Shown here piece after piece: positions 31,245 through 58,824 of a DNA stretch of 64,000 nucleotides. The stretch lies in the IMG/VR virus record IMGVR_UViG_3300042484_002275, positions 1-64,000 of that record, one strand, 5' to 3'. Origin of the DNA: a virus. Every line of letters starts with the position of its first letter. The stretch's first letter is position 1. The position numbers and the translations under genes are program-made. The notes under the pieces were generated by a model, which saw only the letters and a program-made list of their open reading frames with translations, did not search any database and was not told where the DNA came from.

Positions 31245-32108
31245 ATGTCTAAAAAACATGTTGTAGTATCCTTAAGTGGAGGAATGGACTCAAGTACTTT
31301 ATTACTTAGATGCCTAAAAGAGTATGACACAGTTACTGCTATTAGCTTTGACTATGGTCAAAAACACAGAGTAGAGCTAGAGAGAGCTCAATCATTGGTA
31401 AACTATATTGGAGAAGAATCATCATCACAGACTGAATTACGTTATCGTCAAATTAAACTAGACGGATTAGTTGATCTATTAGATTCAGCTTTAGTAACTG
31501 GGGGTAAAGATGTACCAGAAGGTCATTACGAGCAAGACAATATGAAAGAAACAGTTGTTCCTAACAGAAACAAGATGTTCGCTTCTATTGCTCAAGCAGT
31601 AGCTTTATCGGTTGCAAATCGTACAGGAGAGACTTGTGATATTGCAATGGGAATTCATGCAGGTGATCATGCTGTTTATCCAGACTGTAGACAAGAATTT
31701 AGAGATGCAGATGATAATGCCTTCAGAATGGGTAACTGGGATGCTGAAAGAGTAGGTTATTTTACACCTTATCTTGATACAGACAAATTCGGTATCTTAC
31801 AGGATGGAGAAGTTTTATGTAAAGAGTTGTATTTAGATTTTGATGAAGTTTATTCAAGAACTAATACTTCTTATAAACCAATATGGATACCAGGACCTGA
31901 AAGTAAATCAAGAGTAGAAGAAACTCACAGAACAAAATGGGGTGAATGGTACTCAGATTATAAATCAGCATCTTCAGTAGAACGTATCGAAGCATTTATC
32001 AAACTAGGAAGAAAAGATCCAGTTGCTTATGCAGACGAAACAGGACCAGTAACATGGGAAGTAGCAAGAGATGCAGTTCAAAAAGTATTAACAGAACATA
32101 ATAATTAA
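31245..32108 (+). CDS. queC: QueC-like 7-cyano-7-deazaguanine synthase
   Basis: 287 residues. The PP-loop SLSGGMDSST at about 9-18 binds ATP; FDYGQKHRVELE and VVPNRNKMFASIA are QueC signatures. It converts CDG to preQ0. The C-terminal zinc site of classical QueC (four Cys) is not visible: the TxSCY position reads TNTSYKP and the CxxC pairs are replaced by HRTKWGEW. It may be a zinc-independent phage branch. The rest of the pathway is at 51434-58824. Confidence 0.88.
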   Translation: MSKKHVVVSLSGGMDSSTLLLRCLKEYDTVTAISFDYGQKHRVELERAQSLVNYIGEESSSQTELRYRQIKLDGLVDLLDSALVTGGKDVPEGHYEQDNMKETVVPNRNKMFASIAQAVALSVANRTGETCDIAMGIHAGDHAVYPDCRQEFRDADDNAFRMGNWDAERVGYFTPYLDTDKFGILQDGEVLCKELYLDFDEVYSRTNTSYKPIWIPGPESKSRVEETHRTKWGEWYSDYKSASSVERIEAFIKLGRKDPVAYADETGPVTWEVARDAVQKVLTEHNN

Positions 32109-32112
32109 GATC

Positions 32113-32562
32113 ATGAATGAAACGACAACAACCTTAAATGGTTATTCAGGAACAACAACAAGTAACCACTCGGGAATAACCACAGGCCTCTATACAGGTA
32201 ACATAGGAATGGGAACCTGTAATCCCTCTGAAAGACTAACAGTATCGGGTAACCACTCTAATGGAATAGGAGCAATAGGTACAGCGGTAACACCGGGATT
32301 ACAATTATCAGGAAATGCAACAATTATTTATTCAACAAATCAATTTCAAAATAACATGACACCAAAACAAGTAAACGTAGCAGTATTCACAATCACAAGA
32401 GATGAAGATACAAATGAAATCAATTCAACTAAATTCTTAAAAGAATTATGGATTGAACAAAAAAACGGAACATCAATTGATTTATTAGTTGCAAAACAAT
32501 TAGGAAATGATTTTGATCCTGAACTTACTATTATTAAAACTCTTTCTATAGTAAATTTCTAG
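32113..32562 (+). CDS. tail-fibre-like small protein
   Basis: 149 residues. The Thr/Gly/Ser-rich N-terminus contains GNIGMGTCNPSERLTVSGNH, close to the GNVGIGTxxPxxKLxVxG repeat of phage fibres and tailspikes. The C-terminal half is a plain alpha/beta segment. At this size it could be a fibre fragment or an adaptor. It lies far from other virion genes, so its role is uncertain. Confidence 0.5.
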   Translation: MNETTTTLNGYSGTTTSNHSGITTGLYTGNIGMGTCNPSERLTVSGNHSNGIGAIGTAVTPGLQLSGNATIIYSTNQFQNNMTPKQVNVAVFTITRDEDTNEINSTKFLKELWIEQKNGTSIDLLVAKQLGNDFDPELTIIKTLSIVNF

Positions 32563-32570
32563 TAAAAAAG

Positions 32571-32601
32571 TTGGAGAAGTAAATTAAAGTTCGTATATTT
32601 A
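32571..32601 (+). promoter_or_regulatory. TTG-N20-TATATTTA promoter
   Basis: TTG 32571-32573, 20 bases, TATATTTA 32594-32601, preceded by TTCG. Drives the lipoprotein gene. Confidence 0.65.
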
Positions 32602-32627
32602 AGTATTATTAATAAAAGTAAATAAAA

Positions 32628-32789
32628 ATGAAAAAAGTATTTTTAACATTAGCCTTAGTGGCTTTAGTGGCAGTAAGTTGTAACAAGGTGACTCCGTCAT
32701 CAAAATTAACAACAGTAGATTCAACAGCAGTTCAAACTGATTCAGTATCAGTTGACACAGCTGCAGTAGATACTACAACTGTAAAATAA
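32628..32789 (+). CDS. small lipoprotein
   Basis: 53 residues. A signal peptide ending VAVSC (Cys18) forms a lipobox, followed by a Ser/Thr/Val/Asp-rich tail with DS and DT repeats. Own promoter 27 bases upstream. Small phage lipoproteins often act in superinfection exclusion by blocking receptors (family-level knowledge); here that is only a hypothesis. Confidence 0.65.
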   Translation: MKKVFLTLALVALVAVSCNKVTPSSKLTTVDSTAVQTDSVSVDTAAVDTTTVK

Positions 32790-34382: not shown

Positions 34383-34466
34383 GGAAGGCGGCCGAATGGA
34401 CGAGGAGCTTGTCTTGAAAACAAGTAGCGGGTAACACCGTTGTGGGTTCGATTCCCATGCCTTCCT
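34383..34466 (+). tRNA. tRNA-Ser(UGA)
   Basis: Acceptor GGAAGGC/GCCTTCC, anticodon loop CTTGAAA, T-loop TTCGATT, GG in the D-loop. The 3' CCA is not encoded, as for the other tRNAs here. Confidence 0.88.
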
Positions 34467-34472
34467 CAATAT

Positions 34473-34543
34473 TGCCCGTTCGTATAAAAGTAGTACACAT
34501 GTCTTTGACACATGCGGAGAAGGAGCGTTACCTTCATGGGCAA
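34473..34543 (+). tRNA. tRNA-Gln(UUG), non-canonical T-loop
   Basis: Acceptor TGCCCGT/ATGGGCA, anticodon stem CATGT/ACATG with loop CTTTGAC. The T-stem GAAGG/CCTTC is perfect but its loop is AGCGTTA instead of TTCGANT, and the D-loop TAAAAGTAG lacks GG. It is the only Gln tRNA in the window. Confidence 0.8.
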
Positions 34544-34554
34544 CAAATTAAATT

Positions 34555-34627
34555 TCTAGTAGCGAAGCTAGGTTACATGCCTCACTTGGACTGAGGAGTA
34601 CGCAGGTTCGAATCCTGCCTATTAGAC
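34555..34627 (+). tRNA. tRNA-Pro(UGG)
   Basis: Acceptor TCTAGTA/TATTAGA, anticodon stem CCTCA/TGAGG with loop CTTGGAC, T-loop TTCGAAT, GG in the D-loop. Confidence 0.88.
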
Positions 34628-34631
34628 AATC

Positions 34632-34702
34632 GCCCTCTAGGCTTTAAAGTGAAGCACCTAGCTTTTAACTAGGGTAAGAAGGAGCATTACCTTCAGGGGG
34701 TA
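34632..34702 (+). tRNA. tRNA-Lys(UUU), non-canonical T-loop
   Basis: Acceptor GCCCTCT/AGGGGGT, D-stem GCTT/AAGC with loop TAAAGTG (no GG), anticodon CCTAG/CTAGG with loop CTTTTAA, T-stem GAAGG/CCTTC with loop AGCATTA. Confidence 0.8.
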
Positions 34703-34719
34703 CACGGATGAGATTGTTA

Positions 34720-34757
34720 CTAATTCATAGAACTGCATGGTGTGAGCGTAGAATTAG
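34720..34757 (+). other. hairpin spacer in tRNA array
   Basis: CTAATTC (34720-34726) pairs with GAATTAG (34751-34757), enclosing 24 bases between tRNA-Lys and tRNA-Val. Confidence 0.4.
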
Positions 34758-34761
34758 ATTT

Positions 34762-34832
34762 GCCTCGTTGGCGTAATGGGAGCGTATTTCTTTTACATGG
34801 AAATGGCAGTGGTTCGATTCCACTACGAGGTA
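34762..34832 (+). tRNA. tRNA-Val(UAC)
   Basis: Acceptor GCCTCGT/ACGAGGT, anticodon stem TTTCT/GGAAA with loop TTTACAT, T-arm GTGG-TTCGATT-CCAC. Confidence 0.85.
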
Positions 34833-34833
34833 C

Positions 34834-35029
34834 TAAGTAAGTTAATATGCTGTGAAAGCTTCAATGAGCGCAAGTTGAAGTTAGGTGGGTTCGAGCCCCT
34901 CTACTGTAGTAATAGCCTAAGTCGGAGGCAGCCAAGTAGCAGATAACATATTATAGCCGATTTGGGTTGTGCACCTCGTCCGAGAAGCCCTAATAGTTCC
35001 TAATAGTTCGGTATGGAACAACTTACTTA
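34834..35029 (+). ncRNA. 196-base structured spacer RNA
   Basis: A perfect 10-bp terminal helix TAAGTAAGTT (34834-34843) / AACTTACTTA (35020-35029), with inner AATATG/CATATT and a CTTCAA/TTGAAG hairpin. No ORF and no complete cloverleaf, though one GGTTCGAGCC block is T-arm-like. May be a degenerate tRNA or an independent phage RNA. Confidence 0.45.
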
Positions 35030-35033
35030 AAAT

Positions 35034-35104
35034 GGGGACAACAGGCAAGGTGCCGAGCAGCTCTGTAAAAGCTCACTGGGTAGGTTCGATTCCTACTGGC
35101 CCCA
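35034..35104 (+). tRNA. tRNA-Tyr(GUA)
   Basis: Acceptor GGGGACA/TGGCCCC (one A-G mismatch), anticodon loop CTGTAAA, T-loop TTCGATT. The long variable arm usual for bacterial tRNA-Tyr is missing. Confidence 0.78.
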
Positions 35105-35106
35105 CA

Positions 35107-35143
35107 AAGTCATGGCATCAAATCCCGGTAGGGGTGCTGACTT
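35107..35143 (+). other. hairpin spacer
   Basis: AAGTCA/TGACTT outer helix with GCATC/GGTGC inner helix between tRNA-Tyr and tRNA-Phe. The rest of the gap to 35210 shows no clear structure. Confidence 0.4.
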
Positions 35144-35210
35144 AAAATAAACAACGATGGTGAAAATGGAGTCCTGCAGGCTAACCAGAAGTAACAACGA
35201 GGGGATAATT

Positions 35211-35283
35211 GGGGATTAAGCTAATCTAGTGAAAGCGCTAGCCTGAAGAGTTAGAGAGATCGGAGCGTAACCGATAGTCCCCA
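35211..35283 (+). tRNA. tRNA-Phe(GAA), non-canonical T-loop
   Basis: Acceptor GGGGATT/AGTCCCC, anticodon stem CTAGC/GTTAG with loop CTGAAGA, T-stem ATCGG/CCGAT with loop AGCGTAA. D-loop AATCTAGTGAA has no GG. Only Phe tRNA present. Confidence 0.8.
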
Positions 35284-35289
35284 CAATAT

Positions 35290-35364
35290 TGGTCTGAAGC
35301 TTAAGAGGTATACAGCGGAGGTTTGTTAAACCTAGGATAGCAGGTTCGAGTCCTGTCAGACCAG
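35290..35364 (+). tRNA. tRNA-Asn(GUU)
   Basis: Acceptor TGGTCTG/CAGACCA perfect, anticodon loop TTGTTAA, T-loop TTCGAGT, GG in the D-loop. Confidence 0.87.
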
Positions 35365-35366
35365 CA

Positions 35367-35426
35367 AAACTACTGAAATTGAATGACACGAGCTTCATAC
35401 GTTCGAAAGGAGTCATGCAGTAGTTT
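35367..35426 (+). ncRNA. 60-base hairpin RNA spacer
   Basis: AAACTACTG (35367-35375) pairs perfectly with CAGTAGTTT (35418-35426), with an inner ATGAC/GTCAT helix. It sits precisely between two tRNA genes. Confidence 0.45.
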
Positions 35427-35431
35427 AAAAT

Positions 35432-35585
35432 GTTCGTATAGATGTGCTGTGGATACGCAGGGAACACATCGAGTGGGTTAATGATGGTAGTAGGTACACA
35501 ACACTCCTTAATACTAGGATTGGAGCGAAGGGTTGATGCATACTGCAGGTAATTAACAAGACTGGTTCGATTCCAGTTACGGGCG
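35432..35585 (+). tRNA. interrupted or expanded tRNA, identity unclear
   Basis: The 3' end ACTGG-TTCGATT-CCAGT followed by TACGGGC is a perfect T-arm plus acceptor strand. The best 5' partner is GTTCGTA at 35432 (7 pairs, two G-T), giving 154 bases, about twice a tRNA. GATGTG/CACATC and GAGTG/CACTC helices lie between. It looks like a tRNA with about 80 inserted bases, or a remnant T-arm fused to a structured spacer. The anticodon cannot be read safely. Confidence 0.4.
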
Positions 35586-35590
35586 CAATT

Positions 35591-35662
35591 TCTCCTATAG
35601 TAGAATGGTTAGCACACATCTCTGATAAGGATGAAATGGAAGTTCAATTCTTCCTAGGAGTA
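35591..35662 (+). tRNA. tRNA-Ile(GAU)
   Basis: CTCCTA/TAGGAG acceptor (T1-T72 unpaired), anticodon stem CATCT/GGATG with loop CTGATAA, T-arm GGAAG-TTCAATT-CTTCC. Confidence 0.82.
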
Positions 35663-35664
35663 CA

Positions 35665-35770
35665 AAAGTTACCACGCTTGTTCCGTCAGTGGTTGTAAAG
35701 TCGAATCAATAAACGGAACCCCAAATGGAGGTCTTGCCTTAGTAGACTAAAGATTCTAAACGACAACTTT
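35665..35770 (+). ncRNA. 106-base structured spacer RNA
   Basis: AAAGTT/AACTTT terminal helix, GTTCCGT (35680-35686) with ACGGAAC (35713-35719), and a CTTAGT/ACTAAAG hairpin. Lies between tRNA-Ile and tRNA-Ser(GCU). Confidence 0.4.
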
Positions 35771-35774
35771 AAAT

Positions 35775-35857
35775 GGAAAGTAAATCAACTAGGAGTTGAG
35801 ACCGCTTGCTAAGCGTATCGTGCCTTCGGGCATGGGGTTCGATACCTCTACTTTCCT
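35775..35857 (+). tRNA. tRNA-Ser(GCU)
   Basis: Acceptor GGAAAGT/ACTTTCC, anticodon loop TTGCTAA, long variable arm TGCC-TTCG-GGCA as expected for Ser, T-loop TTCGATA. The anticodon stem is weak (three pairs). Confidence 0.8.
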
Positions 35858-35870
35858 CTTTAAAAACCTG

Positions 35871-35994
35871 GTCCCTGTCCTCATAAAGTGTTTAAGGAAC
35901 ACAGGAGTTGAATGTGCATTCGGGGCGGATAGTGGTGGGACACTGATAAATAAAATCTTAAGCACAAAGATAAGTTAACGGGTTCTTATCAACT
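35871..35994 (+). other. structured spacer region
   Basis: GTCCC (35871) / GGGAC (35937), a GTGTT/AACAC hairpin and a GATAAG/CTTATC hairpin lie between two tRNAs; no ORF or cloverleaf is convincing. Confidence 0.3.
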
Positions 35995-36063
35995 ACCGAC
36001 TTGATCTAGGATCGAAAATATCTCATAAGTATTTTCAGACAAGAGCGTAACTTGTAGTCGGTA
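35995..36063 (+). tRNA. tRNA with CAU anticodon (Met or Ile2), non-canonical T-loop
   Basis: Acceptor ACCGACT/AGTCGGT perfect, anticodon stem AATAT/GTATT (extendable to eight pairs) with loop CTCATAA, T-stem ACAAG/CTTGT with loop AGCGTAA. The D-arm is reduced to GATC-TAG-GATC, a three-base loop. One of three CAU tRNAs. Confidence 0.75.
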
Positions 36064-36067
36064 CAAA

Positions 36068-36144
36068 GCTAAAGTGGTGAAATTGGTAAACACTCCCATC
36101 GAGAGATGGTGCGGATTTTGTAGGTTCGAGTCCTACCTTTAGTG
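36068..36144 (+). tRNA. tRNA-Leu, probable GAG anticodon
   Basis: The Leu-like 5' half (GCTAAAGTGGTGAAATTGG) and T-arm GTAGG-TTCGAGT-CCTAC are clear. The anticodon arm CCCATCGAGAGATGG can form CCAT/ATGG around CGAGAG, a six-base loop, so GAG is the likely but not certain anticodon. Confidence 0.7.
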
Positions 36145-36149
36145 TATAT

Positions 36150-36221
36150 GGTGTTTCTAGCTTAATCGGTAAAGTGCTTCACTGTGAATGAAGAGAACAG
36201 GGTTCGAAACCCGGAAACACA
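36150..36221 (+). tRNA. tRNA-His(GUG)
   Basis: Acceptor GTGTTTC/GAAACAC with an extra 5' G at 36150 as tRNA-His needs, anticodon stem CTTCA/TGAAG with loop CTGTGAA, T-loop TTCGAAA. Confidence 0.87.
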
Positions 36222-36316
36222 CGACGACGCCCAAAGGACGATCGACCTGGCCAGAGACTAGTTCTTGCAAACTCAATGCCTAAAGTTGAGCGGCCAATCT
36301 ATGGGATTGGCTTTAC
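36222..36316 (+). other. structured spacer with two hairpins
   Basis: CTCAA/TTGAG hairpin near 36271-36290 and a perfect 7-bp GCCAATC (36293-36299) / GATTGGC (36305-36311) hairpin precede tRNA-Leu(UAA). Confidence 0.35.
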
Positions 36317-36389
36317 ATCCCTGTGGTGAAACGGTAAACACAACGAGTTTAAGCCTCGTAAGCTGCAGGTTCGACTCCTGTCAGGGATA
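36317..36389 (+). tRNA. tRNA-Leu(UAA)
   Basis: Acceptor ATCCCTG/CAGGGAT, anticodon stem ACGAG/CTCGT with loop TTTAAGC, T-loop TTCGACT. The variable loop is only about five bases, unusual for Leu. Confidence 0.85.
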
Positions 36390-36394
36390 CAAAT

Positions 36395-36467
36395 GGTCTT
36401 GTAGCATAAATGGAAATGCACTTGAATACGAATCAAGAGATTGTAGGCTCGAATCCTACCAGGACTT
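36395..36467 (+). tRNA. tRNA-Arg(ACG)
   Basis: Acceptor GGTCTTG/CAGGACT, anticodon stem CTTGA/TCAAG with loop ATACGAA, T-stem GTAGG/CCTAC with loop CTCGAAT (CTC in place of TTC). Confidence 0.83.
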
Positions 36468-36472
36468 CAATT

Positions 36473-36544
36473 GCCCTATTAGTTAAACGGATATAACGAA
36501 TCTCTTCTAAAGATTAATTCTAGGTTCGATTCCTGGATGGGGTA
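36473..36544 (+). tRNA. tRNA-Arg(UCU)
   Basis: Acceptor GCCCTAT/ATGGGGT, anticodon stem AATCT/AGATT with loop CTTCTAA, T-loop TTCGATT. Confidence 0.87.
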
Positions 36545-36551
36545 CAAAAAA

Positions 36552-36603
36552 ATCGTATTGGAAGAAAGTTTGATCAACTTTCGTAGGTTAAGCGATATCC
36601 TAC
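36552..36603 (+). other. hairpin spacer
   Basis: GAAAGTT (36564-36570) / AACTTTC (36576-36582) perfect hairpin, framed by ATCG/CGAT and followed by GTAGG/CCTAC; between tRNA-Arg and tRNA-Trp. Confidence 0.4.
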
Positions 36604-36607
36604 AAAT

Positions 36608-36678
36608 GCAGGTCACAGACAAGGTGTCGGTACGGTCTCCAAAACTGCTACGGGTAAGTTCGATTCTTACGGTCTGCG
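36608..36678 (+). tRNA. tRNA-Trp(CCA)
   Basis: Acceptor GCAGGTC/GGTCTGC, anticodon loop CTCCAAA, T-arm GTAAG-TTCGATT-CTTAC. Confidence 0.86.
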
Positions 36679-36710
36679 CAAAATAAATTGTTTCATTTAA
36701 AATTAAAATC

Positions 36711-37217
36711 ATGAGTAAGTACCAAAGAACACTGGTAATTGATTCAAGCTTTATGGCAAGATCTATTATCTCTACCGAAAGAGCTTTCGTGATTTCGTAT
36801 AAGGGTAATGCAGAAGTTATAGCTGAACATCCAGAAACATTCGGATTAGTAAATCCGGATTTAAAAATTAATAAACCTTCAATCATTAGGGTTTACAAAT
36901 ACGTAAAACAAGACATTCAAAAAGTTCCTCTAACAAGAGAGAACATTTATCGAAGAGATAATTACGAATGTGTTTATTGTGGATCAAGTTACTTGAAGTC
37001 ACTAACACTTGACCATGTCATCCCACAATCAAAAGGTGGAGCAAATGCTTGGGATAATTTAGTAACAGCATGTAGAACTTGCAATTCAGAAAAAGCAGAT
37101 TTAACTCTTGAGGAATATGGTAAAGACATAGTAGAACCAAAAAGACCTCATTATCTAATGCTTATGAAACAGTTAACATACATTCCAAAAGAATGGGAAA
37201 CATTTTTATTTTTCTAG
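36711..37217 (+). CDS. HNH endonuclease within the tRNA array
   Basis: 168 residues. The C-terminal half carries a typical HNH domain: NIYRRDNYECVYCGSS (first CxxC), LTLDHVIPQSKGGANAWDNL (HNH core) and ACRTCNSEK (second CxxC). The N-terminal 85 residues are unassigned. It is a stand-alone gene between two tRNA blocks, a usual position for homing-type endonucleases that mobilise tRNA regions; it may also be a Bacteroidetes-type HNH without homing activity. Confidence 0.85.
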   Translation: MSKYQRTLVIDSSFMARSIISTERAFVISYKGNAEVIAEHPETFGLVNPDLKINKPSIIRVYKYVKQDIQKVPLTRENIYRRDNYECVYCGSSYLKSLTLDHVIPQSKGGANAWDNLVTACRTCNSEKADLTLEEYGKDIVEPKRPHYLMLMKQLTYIPKEWETFLFF

Positions 37218-37226
37218 TAAAAAAAG

Positions 37227-37257
37227 TTGCTAGAAAGAAATAAAGTTCGTATCTTTA
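37227..37257 (+). promoter_or_regulatory. tRNA array promoter 2
   Basis: TTG 37227-37229, 20 bases, TATCTTTA 37250-37257, preceded by TTCG. Restarts transcription after the HNH gene. Confidence 0.68.
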
Positions 37258-37273
37258 AGTATAAGAAAGAAAC

Positions 37274-37335
37274 ATCACCTACTACGTAACGCACGATCGA
37301 CGACACGTACTGTCTGGCAGGTCAGGCTAGGTGAT
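37274..37335 (+). ncRNA. 62-base structured spacer RNA
   Basis: Perfect 8-bp terminal helix ATCACCTA (37274-37281) / TAGGTGAT (37328-37335), ending five bases before tRNA-Cys. Confidence 0.42.
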
Positions 37336-37339
37336 AAAT

Positions 37340-37409
37340 GGGCAGGGTGGTCTTGGAGGCCGGTGGCATTGCAACAGCTACAGACAGAGTTCGATTCTCT
37401 GCTTGCCCT
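37340..37409 (+). tRNA. tRNA-Cys(GCA)
   Basis: Acceptor GGGCAGG/CTTGCCC, anticodon loop TTGCAAC, T-arm CAGAG-TTCGATT-CTCTG. Confidence 0.82.
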
Positions 37410-37423
37410 CATTGAAGGTTCGA

Positions 37424-37468
37424 CCCTCTACCATCTTGTATTACACCTACAGATGGATATCGAGAGGG
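37424..37468 (+). other. nested hairpin spacer
   Basis: CCCTCT (37424-37429) / AGAGGG (37463-37468) outer and CCATCT (37431-37436) / AGATGG (37451-37456) inner helices. An ACCGC/GCGGT hairpin follows before tRNA-Leu(UAG). Confidence 0.45.
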
Positions 37469-37505
37469 AGCTACCGATTGATAAGTGACCGCACATGCGG
37501 TAAAT

Positions 37506-37578
37506 GCCCGAGTGGTGGAACGGTAGACACGCTAGTCTTAGGAACTAGATACTGAGGGTTCGAATCCCTCCTTGGGTA
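37506..37578 (+). tRNA. tRNA-Leu(UAG)
   Basis: Acceptor GCCCGAG/CTTGGGT, anticodon stem CTAGT/ACTAG with loop CTTAGGA, T-arm GAGGG-TTCGAAT-CCCTC; short variable loop. Confidence 0.86.
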
Positions 37579-37583
37579 CGATA

Positions 37584-37649
37584 GTAGGACCGGGTTACCG
37601 GATATGGGTTCCTTAATTGGACAGAAGGACTGGAGTCCTAGTCGCCTAC
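37584..37649 (+). other. cloverleaf-like spacer RNA
   Basis: GTAGG/CCTAC terminal helix enclosing CCGG-GTTA-CCGG and AGGAC-TGGA-GTCCT hairpins. Loops do not match any tRNA consensus. Confidence 0.35.
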
Positions 37650-37657
37650 AAAATAAA

Positions 37658-37726
37658 ATTAGAGTTCGCTTATAGTAAAGCAGCAGGGGCTAACCTGCAG
37701 AAGGGATTCCAACACCCACTCTAATT
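37658..37726 (+). ncRNA. tRNA-sized cloverleaf RNA, non-canonical
   Basis: Acceptor ATTAGAG/CTCTAAT inside a 10-bp helix, D-arm GCTT-ATAGTA-AAGC (no GG), anticodon arm GCAGG-GGCTAA-CCTGC with a six-base loop, T-arm with loop TTCCAAC flanked by A-A mismatches. Full cloverleaf geometry, but no U33 and a short anticodon loop, so it may be a degenerate or specialised tRNA. Confidence 0.45.
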
Positions 37727-37731
37727 TACTT

Positions 37732-37805
37732 GCTCTCGACGCACAAATGGTGGTGCACCGGATTTGTAACCCGGAATAGAGCCAGTTCGATCCTGGCCGA
37801 GAGCT
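37732..37805 (+). tRNA. tRNA-Thr(UGU)
   Basis: Acceptor GCTCTCG/CGAGAGC perfect, anticodon loop TTTGTAA, T-arm GCCAG-TTCGATC-CTGGC. Confidence 0.87.
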
Positions 37806-37813
37806 CAATAAAT

Positions 37814-37886
37814 GCGAATGTCGTATAACGGCTCATTACTCTTGACTTCCAATCAAGGAATGAGGGTTCGATTCCCTCCATTCGCT
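37814..37886 (+). tRNA. tRNA-Gly(UCC)
   Basis: Acceptor GCGAATG/CATTCGC perfect, anticodon stem CTTGA/TCAAG with loop CTTCCAA, T-loop TTCGATT. Confidence 0.9.
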
Positions 37887-37892
37887 CAAAAT

Positions 37893-37964
37893 GGCCCTAT
37901 CGTCTATCGGTTAGGACACATGGTTTTCATCCATGAAAGTCGGGTTCGACTCCCGGTGGGGCTA
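37893..37964 (+). tRNA. tRNA-Glu(UUC)
   Basis: Acceptor GGCCCTA/TGGGGCT, anticodon stem CATGG/CCATG with loop TTTTCAT, T-loop TTCGACT. Confidence 0.9.
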
Positions 37965-37969
37965 CAATT

Positions 37970-38041
37970 GGGGCTATAGTATAACGGCTATTACAATGGT
38001 TTTGCAAATCATAAATTGGAGTTCGATTCTCCATAGCTCCA
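37970..38041 (+). tRNA. tRNA-Ala(UGC)
   Basis: Acceptor GGGGCTA/TAGCTCC, anticodon loop TTTGCAA, T-arm TGGAG-TTCGATT-CTCCA. Confidence 0.9.
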
Positions 38042-38046
38042 CAAAA

Positions 38047-38118
38047 GGTCTATTCGTTCAACGGCTAGGACACTACCCTGTCACGGTAGGGATGAGAGTT
38101 CGATTCTCTCATAGACCG
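38047..38118 (+). tRNA. tRNA-Asp(GUC)
   Basis: Acceptor GGTCTAT/ATAGACC perfect, anticodon stem CTACC/GGTAG with loop CTGTCAC, T-loop TTCGATT. Confidence 0.92.
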
Positions 38119-38124
38119 CTATAT

Positions 38125-38198
38125 CGCGAGTTGGTAGAAGATGGTATCTCGCTAGGCTCATAACCTAGAGGTCGGGGGTTCGAATCCCTCACTCGCTA
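38125..38198 (+). tRNA. initiator tRNA-fMet(CAU)
   Basis: C1 faces T72 (unpaired, the initiator hallmark), then GCGAGT/ACTCGC. Anticodon stem CTAGG/CCTAG with loop CTCATAA, followed by AGGTC as in bacterial initiators; T-loop TTCGAAT. The anticodon stem has two rather than three G-C pairs next to the loop. Confidence 0.82.
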
Positions 38199-38203
38199 CT
38201 AAT

Positions 38204-38278
38204 GTCCTTTTAGCTCAGCCCGGTTAGAGCAGCTCGCTCATAACGAGAAGGTCACAGGTTCGAATCCTGTATAGGACA
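38204..38278 (+). tRNA. tRNA-Met(CAU) elongator or tRNA-Ile2
   Basis: Acceptor GTCCTTT/ATAGGAC (one T-T mismatch), canonical D-arm with GG, anticodon loop CTCATAA, T-loop TTCGAAT. If lysidine is added it would read AUA as Ile. Confidence 0.85.
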
Positions 38279-38308
38279 CAAAAATTTTATCCAATAAAAA
38301 TAAAAGTT

Positions 38309-51433: not shown

Positions 51434-51895
51434 ATGAAATTTCAATCAACAAAAGTATTTGATGGATACTCTACAGTATTTCGTCAATGGAGAGCAGAAG
51501 GTACTCATTGTAGTTTTCTTCACGGTTATGGCATTTCTTTCAAAATTATATTTGAAGGAGACCTAGACGAAAGAAACTGGGTGTGGGACTTTGGAGGAAT
51601 GAAAAGAGCTAAGAACACTATTGATGGTATGGCTCCTAAAGCATGGATGGACTATATGTTCGATCATACATATATCATTGCATTAGATGATCCTTTTCTA
51701 TATAAAGCACATGCAATGCACGACGAAGGTATAGCTCAAGTCCGGGTAGTTCCAGCTACAGGAGCAGAACAATTTGCAAAATTTATTTATGATAAAGTAT
51801 CTGAGTTTATTAAAATTGAGACAAATAATAGAGTAAGAGTAGAGAGTGTAGAATTTAAAGAACATAGTAAAAACTCAGCAATATATGGAGAGTAA
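51434..51895 (+). CDS. queD: QueD-like 6-carboxytetrahydropterin synthase
   Basis: 153 residues of the PTPS fold: FRQWRAEGTHCSFLHGYG corresponds to the Cys...HGH region, WDFGGMKRA follows as usual and FDHTYIIAL contains the catalytic-type DH. The classic HGH zinc pair reads HGY, so one zinc ligand differs. It makes CPH4 from dihydroneopterin triphosphate. The stop overlaps queE by eleven bases. Confidence 0.85.
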   Translation: MKFQSTKVFDGYSTVFRQWRAEGTHCSFLHGYGISFKIIFEGDLDERNWVWDFGGMKRAKNTIDGMAPKAWMDYMFDHTYIIALDDPFLYKAHAMHDEGIAQVRVVPATGAEQFAKFIYDKVSEFIKIETNNRVRVESVEFKEHSKNSAIYGE

Positions 51896-52670
51896 ATTGA
51901 AAAGAATAGAAGATTATAACAAAACACTTCCCATTGTAGAGCTTTATACAGCAGTGCAATCAGAAGGAAGTAGAGCAGGCTATCCAACGGTAGTAATCAG
52001 AACAACAGGCTGTACTCACAGATGTTGGTTTGGTGATGGTGGATGGTGCGACAGTTGGTACACCAGTATTCATCCTGAAAAAGGACATATTAGTTTCCAA
52101 GACATCATAAACATGTATGATGCAAATCCTCACATCACAGAGATGATGTTAACAGGAGGATCACCTACAATGCATCCAGCATTAGTAAACGAATTAACAC
52201 ATTTTGCACATGAAAGAAATATTTTCATTACGATTGAGACCGAAGGAAGTCATTTTCTTGAAACGGATTACCCAATTAATCTATTATCAATCTCCCCTAA
52301 GTTTTCTAACTCTGTCCCTAAGGTTGGTATTCTTACACCTCAAGGAGATGTGGTTGACGATAAAATGGTTAAGCAACACAACAAATTAAGACTTAACTTT
52401 GATGCAATGTCTAAATCAATTTCATATCATTCTGACTATCATTTAAAGCCAGTATGGGATGGAGAGGATCAAGAAGCATTGAAAGAGATATTAGGATTAA
52501 TAAAAGTTCTAGATATACCTCAGGACAAAGTCTGGTTCATGCCAGCAGGAGATTCAAGAGAGGCTTTATTCAAATCATATCCAAAAATGTTTGATTGGGT
52601 GAGAGATAATGGTTATAGATTAACCTGGAGACCTCACATCATTGCATTTGAAGACCAAAGAGAAGTATAA
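51885..52670 (+). CDS. queE: QueE-like 7-carboxy-7-deazaguanine synthase (radical SAM)
   Basis: 261 residues. The cluster motif reads CTHRCWFGDGGWC, i.e. C-x3-C-x7-C rather than C-x3-C-x2-C, then DSWYT. QSEGSRAGYPTVVIRTTGC precedes it, LTGGSPTMHP is the SAM-binding GGEP-like motif, and LSISPKFSNS is a QueE signature. Converts CPH4 to CDG. The five-residue longer loop before the third Cys is a family variant. Confidence 0.88.
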   Translation: MESKLKRIEDYNKTLPIVELYTAVQSEGSRAGYPTVVIRTTGCTHRCWFGDGGWCDSWYTSIHPEKGHISFQDIINMYDANPHITEMMLTGGSPTMHPALVNELTHFAHERNIFITIETEGSHFLETDYPINLLSISPKFSNSVPKVGILTPQGDVVDDKMVKQHNKLRLNFDAMSKSISYHSDYHLKPVWDGEDQEALKEILGLIKVLDIPQDKVWFMPAGDSREALFKSYPKMFDWVRDNGYRLTWRPHIIAFEDQREV

Positions 52671-53739: not shown

Positions 53740-54135
53740 ATGGCATTAAAAATAGGAAATAAGATATTCATAAGCTGGGATGATATGAACATCCTAGTTG
53801 ATGAACTCTGCAGTACGATTTCAAAATCAGGAGCAGAAATTAAATCAATTACAGGAATTGAAAGAGGAGGATTAATACCAGCGGTAATGATCTCACATAA
53901 GCTAAACATTCCTTATGTAACGAAAATCAATAAGTATACTCTTGTTGTAGATGATATTTGTGATACCGGAGAGACGTTAAAAAAGACTGTAGCAGGTTTT
54001 ACAGCAACACTTCATTATAAGAAGACAGCAATCTTTACACCGGACTTCTATTCAAAAGAAGTAGGAACAGAGTGGATTGTTTACCCTTGGGAAAGAAATG
54101 ACTCAGAAACTATTCAAGATTATTTGAAAAAATAG
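53740..54135 (+). CDS. phosphoribosyltransferase-like protein
   Basis: 131 residues. YTLVVDDICDTGETL (about 66-80) is the PRPP-binding loop of type I phosphoribosyltransferases and GIERGGLIPAVMIS the preceding strand-loop. Short relative to HPRT/XPRT (about 150-180). Substrate, perhaps xanthine or hypoxanthine, is not defined. Lies beside purine and deazapurine genes. Confidence 0.8.
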   Translation: MALKIGNKIFISWDDMNILVDELCSTISKSGAEIKSITGIERGGLIPAVMISHKLNIPYVTKINKYTLVVDDICDTGETLKKTVAGFTATLHYKKTAIFTPDFYSKEVGTEWIVYPWERNDSETIQDYLKK

Positions 54136-54206: not shown

Positions 54207-54917
54207 ATGTCAAATAAAAAATTTATCGACGGTACAGAATTAGTACAAGCCGGATTCGCTAATGGTATTTCATCTCAATTAGCTAAAAAACAATTAACAG
54301 ATGGTCCAGAGGCAAGACTAACTGAAGTAGAAAAGCAACACATAATCGAAGATGCAGCAGAAGCATTTGGTAACTTCTTAACAGCTTTAGGTACTGATTG
54401 GAAGAATGATCCAAATTCATCTGATACTCCAAAGAGAGTTGCAAAGGCTTATGTAAATGATCTATGGGCAGGAAGGTATGCACCACTTACTCAAATCACA
54501 GCATTTCCTTCAGATGGATATGATGGAATAGTTCAAGAGAGTAACATACCAGTTACTTCAATGTGTTCACATCACCACCAAACAATCTCCGGAGAGGTAA
54601 GCATAGCTTATATTCCCTCTAAAGATGGAAAGGTAGTTGGGCTTTCAAAACTAAATAGAATTGTAGAGCAGTTTGCTAGACGTGGAGCAATCCAAGAACA
54701 GTTAACAGTTGCAATTCATAATGCAGTAGATAAAATCTGTGAAGGGAATCTAGGAGTAGCAGTAGCAATCTCAGCAACACATAACTGCGTATCATGTAGA
54801 GGAATTAAACATCAAGGAGCTTCAATGCAAACAGCAAAGCTAACAGGATGTTTCTTAGAAGAAGATTCAGCAAGAGCAGAATTCTATTCAAATATTAAAC
54901 TCGGAAAAAATAACTAA
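54207..54917 (+). CDS. folE: GTP cyclohydrolase I
   Basis: 236 residues. Zinc and catalytic residues are in TSMCSHHHQTISGEV (Cys, His) and NCVSCRGIKHQGA (Cys). VGLSKLNRIVEQFARR is the conserved GTP-binding helix. It turns GTP into dihydroneopterin triphosphate, the entry to preQ0/preQ1. Own promoter, suggesting separate control from queD/queE. Confidence 0.93.
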   Translation: MSNKKFIDGTELVQAGFANGISSQLAKKQLTDGPEARLTEVEKQHIIEDAAEAFGNFLTALGTDWKNDPNSSDTPKRVAKAYVNDLWAGRYAPLTQITAFPSDGYDGIVQESNIPVTSMCSHHHQTISGEVSIAYIPSKDGKVVGLSKLNRIVEQFARRGAIQEQLTVAIHNAVDKICEGNLGVAVAISATHNCVSCRGIKHQGASMQTAKLTGCFLEEDSARAEFYSNIKLGKNN

Positions 54918-55126: not shown

Positions 55127-55130
55127 AAAG

Positions 55131-55153
55131 TTGGACCTTCGGGTCCAATTTCT
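55131..55153 (+). terminator. terminator after folE operon
   Basis: TTGGACC-TTCG-GGTCCAA perfect hairpin followed by TTTCT; the first three bases are the next promoter's TTG. Confidence 0.75.
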
Positions 55154-55178: not shown

Positions 55179-55703
55179 ATGATAACAGATCCAAAAGTAC
55201 CTTTTATTGATGAGGTAGAAGAGTTTAATGCCGTAATGGGCAAACCTAACAACTATGAACCAACTATCCCCGAAAGAAAAGAATGGGAGTTTGTATACAA
55301 TTTCATCCTTGAGGAATTGGAAGAATATAGAGAAGCTTGCGAAAGAGGAGACATCGTTGAGGTTTTGGATGCTTTGTGCGATATTGCTTATGTTTCCCTT
55401 GGGAACGGTACTATGTTACATGGCCTTAAGGATAAGATATGGCCAGCATATCAAGAAGTACAGGCATCAAATATGTCTAAAGCTTGCAAAACAGAAGACG
55501 AAGCTTTACAGACTGTCATTAAGAGAGCGCTCGAACAGAATGAAGCATGTCATCATGAAAAAGTTGGAGACTATTATATCGTCTATAGAACAAGAGATAG
55601 AAAAGTAATGAAGAACGTTAACTATTTCCGTCCGGACTTAAAACAATTCTTTACAGATAAAGAACTTCAGAAGTCATATTTAAAACAACTAACAGGAGAG
55701 TAG
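55179..55703 (+). CDS. MazG-like NTP pyrophosphohydrolase
   Basis: 174 residues. LEELEEYREACERGD followed by VLDALCDIAYVSLG gives the ExxE...ExxD metal pattern of the all-alpha NTP-PPase superfamily. The C-terminal 60 residues carry RPDLKQFF, seen in phage members. Likely hydrolyses non-canonical or canonical dNTPs, perhaps sanitising the pool for DNA modification (inference). Confidence 0.82.
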   Translation: MITDPKVPFIDEVEEFNAVMGKPNNYEPTIPERKEWEFVYNFILEELEEYREACERGDIVEVLDALCDIAYVSLGNGTMLHGLKDKIWPAYQEVQASNMSKACKTEDEALQTVIKRALEQNEACHHEKVGDYYIVYRTRDRKVMKNVNYFRPDLKQFFTDKELQKSYLKQLTGE

Positions 55704-55704
55704 T

Positions 55705-55902
55705 ATGCAAAAAGCATTAGACCATTTAGAGAAGCATAAAGTCTTTATTGAGACTTTAGGAACAGATATGATACCTTTATCGGAAGCTTACAAGGCAGTG
55801 GAGTTATCAATCGATGAACAATTACAGGACACTTTATCTTTACTACAGGAACAACTCGGAGGATTGACAGAAGAACTAGAAATACCAGAAGAAAATGATT
55901 AA
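55705..55902 (+). CDS. small unknown acidic protein
   Basis: 65 residues, helical (MQKALDHLEKHKVFIETLG), with an acidic C-terminus. Overlaps the DpdA-like gene by eight bases, hinting at a functional link. Confidence 0.5.
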   Translation: MQKALDHLEKHKVFIETLGTDMIPLSEAYKAVELSIDEQLQDTLSLLQEQLGGLTEELEIPEEND

Positions 55903-56689
55903 GATAGCTCACGAATCACCAAAAAGCATATTCAAACAGGTACAGAGTGTAACTGACTATGACTATGCACTTGTACATTTATTTGAAGAAGATCCTGAAT
56001 ACCTACAGCAATTTCAAGAGGCAAAGGAAAAAGGAAGAGAGATTATTCTAGATAATTCTATCTTTGAATTAGAAGAAGCTTTTGATGCAGAGAAGTTTGC
56101 AGGATGGGTATTAGAGTTACAACCAGATTGGTATATAGTTCCTGATGCTTTAGAGGATGCAAAGAAGACTTGCTCACAAATGGCAAATTGGATAAACAAA
56201 TATAAAAATCTTCCAGGAAAGAAGATAGGAGTTGTTCAAGGAACAACCTATCAGCAGATTAAATCTTGTTACGAATACATGGATAAGATTGCTGAAGTTG
56301 ATATGATTGCAATTTCATTTGACTATTCTTACTATGTTAAATCAGTTCCGCATCCAAACAAATATGTTTCCTGGATGATGGGTAGAGTAAAACTATTAGG
56401 AGATTTATTAAAGGATGGAATAATAAATGAGAATAAGAAGCATCACTTATTAGGATGCGGATTACCTCAAGAGTTTGCTTTCTATTCAGATTATAAATGG
56501 ATATACTCTTTAGATACTTCCAATCCAGTTGTTCACGGAATAAAAGGAATTGAATACAGAGAAGACGGACTATGGTCAAAAGAATCTCAGAAGTTATTTG
56601 AATTAATAAATCATCAGGTAGAAGATATTAATCCAATACTATATAATATCAATAAGTTCAAATGGTTTACAAATGGAAGCAAAGTATAA
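55895..56689 (+). CDS. dpdA: DpdA-like TGT-fold DNA transglycosylase
   Basis: 264 residues with the TGT-like barrel pattern of phage DpdA: IILDNSIFELEEAFD (catalytic-type Asp), PDWYIVPDALEDAKKT, VVQGTTYQ, MIAISFDYSYY and HHLLGCGLPQEFAFYS. Such proteins swap guanine in DNA for preQ0 or preQ1. The zinc cysteines of tRNA TGT are absent, as in phage DpdA. With FolE, QueD, QueE, QueC and QueF in the same genome this predicts a modified virion DNA. Confidence 0.78.
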   Translation: MIKIAHESPKSIFKQVQSVTDYDYALVHLFEEDPEYLQQFQEAKEKGREIILDNSIFELEEAFDAEKFAGWVLELQPDWYIVPDALEDAKKTCSQMANWINKYKNLPGKKIGVVQGTTYQQIKSCYEYMDKIAEVDMIAISFDYSYYVKSVPHPNKYVSWMMGRVKLLGDLLKDGIINENKKHHLLGCGLPQEFAFYSDYKWIYSLDTSNPVVHGIKGIEYREDGLWSKESQKLFELINHQVEDINPILYNINKFKWFTNGSKV

Positions 56690-56849
56690 AGTAGGACAAA
56701 AAGTTGATATTAATCGTGATAATGAAATACTAGAAGTACAGATATTCGGACATTTTAAAATGAGAGAAAGAGTACTTTACAGTGTTAGATCAGAAGGAAA
56801 GTTTCACGTAATAGAAGAATCAGAAATATTAGAAAGAGTAAATGATTAG
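56673..56849 (+). CDS. small unknown protein
   Basis: 58 residues (MEAKYKVGQKVDINRDNEIL), a beta-rich SH3-like layout. Overlaps both neighbours (16 and 8 bases), which supports it as a real coupled gene. Confidence 0.55.
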   Translation: MEAKYKVGQKVDINRDNEILEVQIFGHFKMRERVLYSVRSEGKFHVIEESEILERVND

Positions 56850-57369
56850 ACCTTGGATAGCATTTTTTAGTCAAACAGGATCAGAGATCGTAGAAGTATC
56901 AAAGCTTCTAGGAAGATGGCCTGATATGATAGTAACAAACGAAAGACCAGAACATCTTAGAAAGATTCATCCGGCTTTAGAGAACAAGCATTTAATCTTC
57001 GTAGATAATAAACCTTCAGAAGAAGAATTAGGACTAATATTAGGTCACTATAAAGAACCTTTAGTAACTCTTCATGGATGGTTAAGAGTTATGCCTCCGG
57101 ATATCTGTAATAGGTTTGAAATCTATAATGGACATCCAGGACTTATAACTGAACATCCAGAACTAAAAGGAAAAGATCCACAACAAAAAGCTTTTGACTT
57201 AGGATTAGAATCTTCCGGATGTGTTATTCATAGAGTAACAGAAGGAGTTGATGAAGGAGAGATACTTCGAAGTAGAAAAGTTTCTATAAAAGGGTTGGAA
57301 ATAGGAGAATTATTTCATATCTTACATAGTATATCAGTAAGTCTTTGGGTAGACTTCTTAAAAAATTAG
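56842..57369 (+). CDS. formyltransferase-like protein
   Basis: 175 residues. LHGWLRVMPPDICNRF and EIYNGHPGLITEH carry the Asn-His of the formyltransferase active site (NxHPxLL), and SGCVIHRVTEGVDEGEILR contains the catalytic-type Asp. It resembles PurN/GART-type 10-formyl-THF enzymes, slightly short. Substrate could be a nucleotide precursor or modified base. Confidence 0.78.
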   Translation: MIRPWIAFFSQTGSEIVEVSKLLGRWPDMIVTNERPEHLRKIHPALENKHLIFVDNKPSEEELGLILGHYKEPLVTLHGWLRVMPPDICNRFEIYNGHPGLITEHPELKGKDPQQKAFDLGLESSGCVIHRVTEGVDEGEILRSRKVSIKGLEIGELFHILHSISVSLWVDFLKN

Positions 57370-57371
57370 TT

Positions 57372-57896
57372 ATGAAAAGAATAGCATTAGTAGGAGCATC
57401 ATCAGTAGGTAAGACTACGGTATATGAATTACTTAAAAGTAAATTACCTGAGTATGATTTCATAAATGAATCAACAAGAACGGTTGGTAAATTTGGATTT
57501 CCTATTAATGAAGCAGGAACTTCTGAAACACAGCTTGCTATTTCTTCTTTCCATTTAGAAGCTCTATTAGCTCCTAAGGATGTAATCTTAGATAGATGTT
57601 ATTTGGATTTGGTAGTATACTCTACTTATATGGATAAGTTATCTACTAGCGCATATGATTACATATTAGATACTTGGGTAAGAGTTAGGCATCAGTATAC
57701 ACATTTTATTTACTTCCCTATCGAATTTGCATCAGTAGACGATGGAGTAAGAAGTGTAAACGAAGAATGGAGAGAGGCAATTGATAAGCAGTTTGAAATT
57801 AACTTAAAAGCAATTAAATTTGCTGGAGGAGATTATTTAACAGTAACAGGAAGTCCTAATCAAAGAGTTGAACAAATATTAAACTACATAAAATAA
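57372..57896 (+). CDS. AAA_28-type nucleotide kinase-like protein
   Basis: 174 residues. LVGASSVGKTTVYELL (about 5-20) is a Walker A; ILDRCYLDLVVYS provides the DR..D lid pattern and FINESTR follows the P-loop strand. Similar to NadR-like/AAA_28 kinases in phages. I chose the ATG after the previous stop. Substrate unknown, perhaps a nucleoside. Confidence 0.75.
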   Translation: MKRIALVGASSVGKTTVYELLKSKLPEYDFINESTRTVGKFGFPINEAGTSETQLAISSFHLEALLAPKDVILDRCYLDLVVYSTYMDKLSTSAYDYILDTWVRVRHQYTHFIYFPIEFASVDDGVRSVNEEWREAIDKQFEINLKAIKFAGGDYLTVTGSPNQRVEQILNYIK

Positions 57897-57897
57897 T

Positions 57898-58824
57898 ATG
57901 ACACAAGAATTAAATCAAGCAGAAGTTGTAAAGATTGCAGGAAAGCATCTAGGACAAGTAGGTGGAGCAGGTTATAGCGATACTTATGATCCAAGCCTAT
58001 TGGTAGAAATTCCACGTTACTTGAATAGAGAAGCGTATGGAATTGATGATAACAGTTTACCATTCGTGGGAGGAGATGTATGGAATGCATACGAAGTATC
58101 TGCAATTACTACAAAAGGACTTCCAGTTGTTGGAATGTTAAAGATTTGGTATCCAGCAGATTCAAAACTTCACGTAGAGTCTAAATCAATTAAATTGTAT
58201 TTGAATTCATTCAATATGACTCAATTGGGAGAAACAGATCATGAATGTATCAAGTTACTAAAACAAAGAGTAAAGAAAGACTTATCTGACTTACTACAAA
58301 CAAAAGTACAGGTAGAGATGTTTACCTCAGAGCATTCTCCAAGCTATGCCTTCAAAGGATATGCACCACTAGATGCTTTAGTAGATCTAAATGCAATTGA
58401 ATTTACTTCTTACCATTCAGACGCTACACAATTGGAAACAGAAGAAGTAGATGAGGATGTTGAAATAGGAGAAATAAAAGTACAATCAAATCTTTTAAGA
58501 TCAAATTGTAGAGTAACAAATCAACCAGACTGGGGTGATGTATTTATTCACATCAAGCCTAAAGCAGGAGTTGTTCCTAATCTACAATCACTAGCAAAAT
58601 ATATTGTAAGTCATAGACAAGTAAGTCACTTCCATGAAGAGATTTGTGAAATGATCTACATGCACTTAAAAGAAGCTTACAATCCAGAAGAATTAATGGT
58701 AGCTTGTCTTTACACTCGTAGAGGAGGATTAGATATTAATCCAATTAGAGCTTCACATAAGAAACTAATACCAGGATTCTTTACAGACATTACTTGTAGA
58801 ATGGCTAAAACATTACGTCAATAA
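57898..58824 (+). CDS. queF: QueF-like preQ0 reductase
   Basis: 308 residues, the long (type II) form. SNCRVTNQPDWGDVFI holds the catalytic Cys and Asp, ESKSIKLYLNSFN the substrate/NADPH signature, SHFHEEICEMI and CLYTRRGGLDINP the rest. Reduces preQ0 to preQ1 with NADPH. In a phage this suggests that DNA carries preQ1 rather than preQ0. Confidence 0.9.
   Translation: MTQELNQAEVVKIAGKHLGQVGGAGYSDTYDPSLLVEIPRYLNREAYGIDDNSLPFVGGDVWNAYEVSAITTKGLPVVGMLKIWYPADSKLHVESKSIKLYLNSFNMTQLGETDHECIKLLKQRVKKDLSDLLQTKVQVEMFTSEHSPSYAFKGYAPLDALVDLNAIEFTSYHSDATQLETEEVDEDVEIGEIKVQSNLLRSNCRVTNQPDWGDVFIHIKPKAGVVPNLQSLAKYIVSHRQVSHFHEEICEMIYMHLKEAYNPEELMVACLYTRRGGLDINPIRASHKKLIPGFFTDITCRMAKTLRQ

Follow-up and report, generated by a model that had tools for sequence, protein, structure and literature searches.

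A PurN-fold formyltransferase in a phage 7-deazaguanine cassette points to N-formyl-preQ1 as the probable DNA base, with GNAT domains in related cassettes that lack it

Which base does a phage finally carry in its DNA when it encodes a route from GTP to 7-aminomethyl-7-deazaguanine (preQ1) together with a DNA transglycosylase of the DpdA type? This question is raised by the first 64 kb, hereafter the window, of the 150,740-base virus record IMGVR_UViG_3300042484_002275 of IMG/VR. A preliminary description had recognized FolE, QueD, QueE, QueC, QueF and a DpdA-like transglycosylase there and had taken preQ1 itself to be the modified base. The six open reading frames (ORFs) are open, lie on the plus strand and begin at the positions assigned to them, and their identification is upheld by Pfam matches for five of the products and by an AlphaFold2 (AF2) model for DpdA. 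We regard the GTP-to-preQ1 route plus DpdA as well supported; preQ1 as the final base is probably wrong, in view of a PurN-fold formyltransferase gene with an intact catalytic triad in the same cassette (56842..57369, +; 175 amino acids). Plain preQ1 was rejected as the end product on this ground, and we consider N-formyl-preQ1 in phage DNA the likely outcome, a prediction carried by the gene set, the folds, the catalytic residues and the gene linkage. A phage described as carrying Q genes thereby yields a precise chemical prediction.

The formyltransferase gene had been passed over in the preliminary description, as had a second enzyme-sized gene for a P-loop kinase (57345-57896). Its product matches Pfam with an E-value of 7e-13 and is the sole PF00551 match of the record; a profile of the family finds PurN structures (best E-value 1.4e-15), and the AF2 model (predicted local distance difference test, pLDDT, 92.7) leads Foldseek to PurN at 4e-11. 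The triad Asn96, His98 and Asp137, whose catalytic roles we take to be those in PurN, is invariant in 19 of 19 aligned sequences, and so is an LKGKDPQ block. The GSN phosphate loop of PurN reads G-x-E in these proteins: Glu15 replaces the Asn in all 19, which argues against a phosphoribosyl acceptor. The PurN equivalog cut-off of NCBIfam is not reached (51.5 versus 150.1 bits), which is weak evidence because the Que proteins fall short of theirs as well. The enzyme fits DpdN, a preQ1 formyltransferase. Cui et al. (NAR 51:9214) reportedly introduced in 2023 the base fdPreQ1, the name DpdN and the subfamily DpdA3, which is said to allow complete replacement.

We then examined how closely DpdN, DpdA and QueF keep together across phages, using each of them as bait. 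The DpdA-alignment scan covered the best 80 of 556 relatives and the QueF scan the best 80 of 534, which makes both a sample and not a census. The DpdN bait yielded 58 loci (36-100% identity), with DpdA in 55 and QueF in 54; the misses all lay at the ends of sequence stretches except for locus L059. With the DpdA bait, 57 distinct DpdA genes were counted after leaving out loci with less than 3.5 kb after DpdA, duplicate DpdA and loci without a complete DpdA call. Within 4.5 kb of these, DpdN was found in 53 cases, QueF in 55 and both in 52, and DpdN was the first recognised gene downstream of DpdA in 51 of the 57. Gene order varies, being dpdA-queF-dpdN in L056 and L057. The QueF bait left 47 loci with enough upstream sequence, some of them near-duplicates, once L188 (no QueF called), loci with less than 3.5 kb before QueF and the repeat loci L146, L151, L161 and L169 had been set aside. 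Thirty-eight of the 47 carry DpdA of the type found in the window, 36 of these with DpdN. The other nine have a gene of 439-463 amino acids before queF and never DpdN (0/9); this gene shows DSGGLQ-like motifs by eye and gave no match to the Pfam family of tRNA-guanine transglycosylase (TGT) in the three examples scanned, and we presume that it may be of the DpdA2 type. When DpdA- and QueF-bait loci with 2 kb or more downstream of DpdA were pooled and each DpdA sequence was counted once, DpdN lay within 4.5 kb of 102 of 109 distinct DpdA genes. Because a PurN-fold enzyme with its triad sits in the cassette and tracks DpdA across divergent phages, N-formyl-preQ1 is predicted: a formyltransferase fixed to both preQ1 synthesis and a DNA transglycosylase would most simply formylate the aminomethyl nitrogen of preQ1.

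The same data bear on two other accounts of the gene. The first holds that plain 2'-deoxy-preQ1 (dPreQ1) is the main DNA base and that the formyltransferase acts elsewhere or on a small fraction. The intact QueF speaks for it, as does precedent, dPreQ1 having been measured in the phages Dp-1 and HVTV-1 (excerpts of PMC6884629). We nevertheless judge it unlikely, given that the formyltransferase accompanies QueF and DpdA of this type across divergent phages and keeps its catalytic residues in 19 of 19 sequences. The second account takes the enzyme for a plain PurN, which would raise the purine supply during replication and have nothing to do with DNA modification. Its top structure and profile matches are PurN, depositors of the closest isolates (the immuto phages described below) named it phosphoribosylglycinamide formyltransferase, and there are cyanophage records with genes so annotated. 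Against this stand the Glu in place of the phosphate-loop Asn, the way the enzyme tracks dpdA and queF and, as a weak point, the NCBIfam score. On the strength of Glu15 and the linkage we rejected a role in purine supply, which seems very improbable.

If the preQ1 amine is the target, what happens in cassettes without DpdN? For six of the seven distinct DpdA proteins that lack it, a GNAT domain is present in the cassette, in five layouts, and in two of these it occupies the exact DpdN slot. In L230 (one contig), a clear GNAT (4372-4821, Pfam 2.9e-11) lies exactly between dpdA and the kinase gene. L082 and L088/L089 (three contigs) encode a protein of 508 amino acids with GNAT in its C-terminal part, preceded by a weakly HAD-like part (E-value 0.0025 in L089, below the Pfam cut-off), and a VOC-fold protein beside it; in L089 (6918-8444) the GNAT half falls between dpdA and the kinase gene. 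The kinase itself is fused to a GNAT-like domain in L126 (6123-7079; one contig, the same as L175). In L159 (one contig) the slot is taken by an amidoligase-like protein, a weak match at 0.02 and below the Pfam cut-off, and a GNAT-like protein (8557-9012) is encoded between the kinase and queF. In the fifth layout (two contigs, L163 and L179) the GNAT (5610-6017) stands just before dpdA; L180 and L181, close kin of L163 whose DpdA proteins are 80 and 77% identical to its own, have DpdN directly after dpdA. The GNATs of L126 and L159 are below Pfam cut-offs, and the naming is stronger for L089, L163 and L230.

As a control, we took the 416 ORFs of 100 amino acids or more that lie up to 4.5 kb from DpdA in 147 DpdN-bearing loci and chose 186 representatives. 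A Pfam scan of these in two batches gave no GNAT family among the families listed, 25 out of 92 in one batch and 25 out of 74 in the other, a scope in which families matched by a single ORF may have gone unseen; a phmmer search with four of the GNATs produced one weak match, an L105 ORF (E-value 0.0024, best domain 0.18). Against the pool of 8,902 ORFs, the five GNATs found matches at 1e-3 in DpdN-less loci only. The L230 and L089 GNATs are relatives of each other (5e-18 against the pool), even though no other DpdA in the pool is more than 48.7% identical to that of L230; the other GNATs are barely alike, and GNAT recruitment has therefore probably been repeated. Acylation of amines is the usual activity of GNATs and preQ1 has one amine, which supports this amine as the target, that of DpdN included. 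Our tentative reading, which we place somewhat short of likely, is that the cassettes contain an interchangeable N-tailoring part, mostly DpdN and in five layouts a GNAT, giving N-acetyl- or other N-acyl-preQ1 bases that are exchanged by gene swapping, perhaps keeping the phages ahead of restriction enzymes that have come to cleave one of the variants. This suggestion, drawn from sequence, is weakened by the small number of contigs, the two sub-cut-off GNATs and the three of five layouts outside the exact slot. If it is true, a GNAT in place of the formyltransferase predicts new natural DNA bases and names the contigs in which to look for them, and the swaps would suggest that the DNA camouflage of this group diversifies through its last enzyme. 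We did not find such a swap in print in the literature searched, most subscription papers lying outside its scope; within the same scope neither fdPreQ1 nor mdPreQ1 was found, and the papers on 7-deazaguanine phages or transglycosylases among the matches listed do not mention an acetyltransferase.

The seventh DpdN-less locus, L171 (one contig), forms a sixth layout and shows by inspection neither DpdN nor GNAT in 12.8 kb, and its QueC is of the zinc-less form described below. Adjoining its DpdA is a CxxCxxCC (YkgJ-like) protein (5337-6008) that is 57.6% identical over 177 residues to gp53 of Cellulophaga phage phi38:2; such a protein also occurs in L173 (4436-5089) and in phi38:2, and in 27 records of the phage collection (Vibrio 18, Cellulophaga 7, Pseudanabaena 1, Mycobacterium 1). 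With some uncertainty, we take it to be possibly the preQ1 methyltransferase DpdM.

A prediction for DNA requires that the transglycosylase act on DNA. The product of dpdA (55895..56689, +; 264 amino acids) had no match in Pfam, PADLOC or NCBIfam and only unnamed ones in PHROGs, and neither phmmer with the single protein nor a profile of the DpdA alignment retrieved a TGT from the sequences of the Protein Data Bank. Its identity therefore rests on predicted structure. The AF2 model (mean pLDDT 94.8 from 27 aligned sequences) is a TGT barrel, which VIA-align superimposes on archaeosine TGT 1iq8 with a Z of 17.9 (root-mean-square deviation 3.0, 234 aligned residues) and on a preQ1-bound bacterial TGT with a Z of 17.6; the 50 Foldseek matches listed comprise TGTs and the DNA preQ0 insertase DpdA 7ui4 (rank 34, E-value 2.6e-6). 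All 27 aligned sequences have both Asp53 and Asp207. Their motifs resemble the DSGGFQ and nucleophile regions of TGT, with a putative equivalence to TGT Asp102 and Asp280 by motif position only. The zinc motif of tRNA-TGT, CxCxxC, is present in 0 of 57 distinct DpdA relatives. The model is thus a TGT barrel lacking this motif, and the DpdA-like identity proposed at the outset gains support from the fold (VIA Z 17.9). In L158, tandem DpdA genes (265 and 289 amino acids, around 6001) stand ahead of DpdN. Genes resembling GIY-YIG and NUMOD3/HNH homing endonucleases repeatedly adjoin dpdA (L015, L018, L082, L089, L136, L148 and L150), as called by Pfam in L089 and by eye and family counts in the others.

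A route that feeds tRNA queuosine, with the 55895 product as the tRNA enzyme, would accord with the TGT fold and with the 18 phage tRNA genes at 34383-38279, which include His-GTG and Asp-GTC. We rejected this alternative, which strikes us as most improbable, on the missing zinc motif (0/57) and on the result that no PF01702 TGT match exists at an E-value of 0.001 across the 150,740-base record. Moreover, preQ1 once N-formylated would lead no further towards queuosine, and phages with a DpdA homologue are described as having highly modified DNA (excerpts of PMC6884629). Amid the tRNA genes lies an ORF that by eye is HNH endonuclease-like (36711-37217).

Turning to the supply of the base, FolE, QueD, QueE, QueC and QueF together yield preQ1 by established pathways (excerpts of PMC6884629), and each of the five window proteins has a Pfam match over the cut-off as well as a PHROG match. 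queF (57898..58824, +; 308 amino acids; Pfam QueF_N 8.9e-34 and QueF 6.5e-21) encodes a predicted NADPH nitrile reductase. It retains Cys204 and Asp211 in SNCRVTNQPDWG as well as the motif ESKSIKLYL, and Cys204, Asp211 and ESKSxKLY are invariant in 39 of 39 aligned sequences; we take the two residues to be catalytic and the ESK(S)xK motif to serve NADPH. Its best structure match is the 3bp1 reductase (1.9e-46), with the active-site residues aligned, and its NCBIfam match (9.2e-79) is under the cut-off. That QueF is instead an amidinotransferase of the QueF-L kind, with archaeosine (dG+) as the resulting DNA base, would be in line with the statements in excerpts of PMC6884629 that sequence hardly separates the two and that HVTV-1 DNA had small amounts of dG+ and 2'-deoxy-7-amido-7-deazaguanine (dADG) beside dPreQ1, but it is scarcely credible for a full bimodular protein with the ESKS motif and 3bp1 as best match, and the same excerpts give dPreQ1 without dG+ for Dp-1 and mainly dPreQ1 for HVTV-1. 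In L025 (7016-7921), QueF is just 39% identical to that of the window, yet DpdA is 83% and DpdN 81% identical, which may reflect an exchange of queF alone.

Upstream in the pathway, folE (54207..54917, +; 236 amino acids; Pfam GTP_cyclohydroI 3.2e-45) encodes GTP cyclohydrolase I. The radical SAM enzyme QueE (51885..52670, +; 261 amino acids; PHROG QueE 7.6e-53, Pfam Radical_SAM 3.7e-7) has Cys43, Cys47 and Cys55 (Cx3Cx7C) invariant across 22 aligned sequences, its own included. In QueD (51434..51895, +; 153 amino acids; Pfam PTPS 1.8e-13, PHROG 8.8e-40), Cys26, Asp77, His78 and Glu112 are invariant in 15 of 15 aligned sequences, and we assume for them the catalytic roles of the Cys, Asp-His and Glu of E. 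coli QueD. Of the three His residues that we presume to be zinc ligands, only His30 aligned, with HGY in place of HGH; the HGY form was seen in 99 loci and HGH in 4. The QueD of Cellulophaga phi38:2, a phage described as 7-deazaguanine-modified (excerpts of PMC11515303), has the same form as that of the window.

QueC (31245..32108, +; 287 amino acids; Pfam QueC 3.5e-36; NCBIfam 126 bits against a cut-off of 150) was compared with motifs taken from excerpts of PMC13329287. It keeps SGGxDS, YxQxHxxE, VPxRN and YPDC, and the zinc motif C(x)8CxxCxxC is absent from the window QueC, its four Cys being S, D, S and S. This zinc-less form accounts for 7 of the 12 aligned QueC sequences, including the one in question; across the fetched loci, 17 have the zinc form and 30 the zinc-less form, and DpdN co-occurs with both (zinc QueC in L038, L051 and L055). 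Y210 in the zinc region is invariant in 12 of 12 and probably corresponds to the Tyr of the E. coli QueC zinc region whose mutation inactivates the enzyme (excerpts of PMC13329287). The zinc-less group raises the question of what purpose the zinc site of QueC serves.

Several observations weigh against the prediction of N-formyl-preQ1. None of the five proteins QueC, QueD, QueE, FolE and QueF reaches the stricter NCBIfam equivalog cut-off (0/5), so they are divergent members of their families. With a QueC that has no zinc site, a feature by which the enzyme is partly defined, and a QueD without two of the three zinc His residues, preQ0 synthesis is not assured. At locus L059, DpdA and DpdN are present and the stretch of 16.5 kb gave no match to QueF, and it does not follow from gene linkage that the acceptor is preQ1.

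Taken together, the N-formyl-preQ1 prediction suggests the following sequence of events. FolE would convert GTP to 7,8-dihydroneopterin triphosphate (H2NTP), QueD would turn this into 6-carboxytetrahydropterin (CPH4), QueE would form 7-carboxy-7-deazaguanine (CDG) and QueC would produce preQ0, which QueF would reduce with NADPH to preQ1. DpdN would presumably take a formyl group from N10-formyl-tetrahydrofolate and attach it to the aminomethyl nitrogen of preQ1, either before or after the base has entered DNA. DpdA would act once the DNA has been replicated and, by analogy with TGT and other DpdA enzymes, would put the base in the place of guanine by way of a covalent intermediate at Asp207. 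The modified DNA might then evade restriction; camouflage of this sort is known.

The genes for these steps are more compact than the preliminary description, which had them scattered over several operons, implied: all but queC fit in 8 kb, with queC about 19 kb upstream of queD, and 55179-59105 is an unbroken run of overlapping or abutting genes. This run is flanked by two terminator-like hairpins (55128-55151 and 59109..59136, the latter on the plus strand), both by consensus match only; seven such sites were found versus 3.3 expected from shuffles. It opens with a gene for a PRA-PH/MazG-like pyrophosphohydrolase (55179..55703, +; Pfam 9.2e-10), which near relatives keep upstream of dpdA. 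Between queE and folE, and kept in near relatives, is a phosphoribosyltransferase gene (53740..54135, +; Pfam 3.8e-8; NCBIfam PRK09177 3.5e-14, below the cut-off) whose product, resembling xanthine phosphoribosyltransferase, may salvage the guanine released by DpdA. The P-loop kinase gene (57345..57896, +; AAA_28, thymidylate-kinase-like; Pfam 4.6e-13, PHROG thymidylate kinase 8.9e-25) stands between dpdN and queF; such a kinase lies within 4.5 kb of DpdA in 49 of the 57 distinct DpdA genes, and it perhaps phosphorylates nucleotides or DNA bases.

Three small ORFs had been put forward as further tailoring or specificity factors. They exist, on the plus strand, and are poor candidates for tailoring. 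The first (55705..55902) overlaps the dpdA start, with a small ORF at this spot in near relatives too; the second (56673..56849) lies between dpdA and dpdN, with homing endonuclease genes nearby in some relatives, and tblastn (1e-4) detected it in near relatives only; the third (58824..59105) follows queF and was found in near relatives. We rejected them as tailoring enzymes since 56673 was not found in L027-L060, where DpdN is present.

How does the cassette compare with known systems? CP220-type Campylobacter phages encode a 258-amino-acid protein of unknown function that is 41-43% identical to the window DpdA (14 of 15 records) and is its closest relative outside Immutovirus in the phage collection; this identity is a lead as to membership of DpdA3. 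In CP220, a P-loop kinase of the type seen in the window comes after the DpdA homologue; unlike the window, the 12.7-kb stretch examined (L092) has no formyltransferase or QueF match, and the CP220 QueC keeps its zinc Cys residues. These phages carry dADG and are reported to be highly modified (excerpts of PMC6884629). As the closest other DpdA thus belongs to highly modified phages, high occupancy is plausible in the window phage. Dp-1 shares a phage QueF, with dPreQ1 measured (same excerpts), and its QueF matches residues 200-283 only of the window QueF; among the 18 records matched by a DpdN search at an E-value of 0.001, none was from Streptococcus or a halovirus. PurN has the fold and the Asn-His-Asp triad in common with the window formyltransferase, which is set apart by its length of 175 amino acids, the LKGKDPQ block, the phosphate-loop Glu and its genomic context. 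The system of Cui et al. reportedly combines a formyltransferase with DpdA (DpdA3) and QueF as well, with 2'-deoxy-7-(formylamino)methyl-7-deazaguanine (fdPreQ1) as its predicted base.

Among isolates in the phage collection, those nearest to the window phage are vB_FspM_immuto_2-6A (the closest, with Flavobacterium sp. LMO8 as host), 3-5A and 13-6C, all Flavobacterium phages (Immutovirus), in which the cassette, its order and its neighbours are as in the window; judging from these relatives, the window phage presumably belongs to the Immutovirus group and infects Flavobacterium. DNA identity is 83% over 90% of the 8.2-kb block, and protein identity is 87.1% for DpdA, 90.9% for the formyltransferase, 80.7% for QueF, 86.3% for QueD and 75.9% for QueC; the small ORFs differ. 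The block identity and the matching depositor annotations exclude chance. The immuto records already name DpdA, QueC, QueD, QueE, QueF and FolE, and they place a 7-deazapurine note on DpdA and not on the gene called phosphoribosylglycinamide formyltransferase. The cassette of the window is thus already largely known from these annotations, and the apparent exchange of DpdN for GNAT domains in its relatives is the new part.

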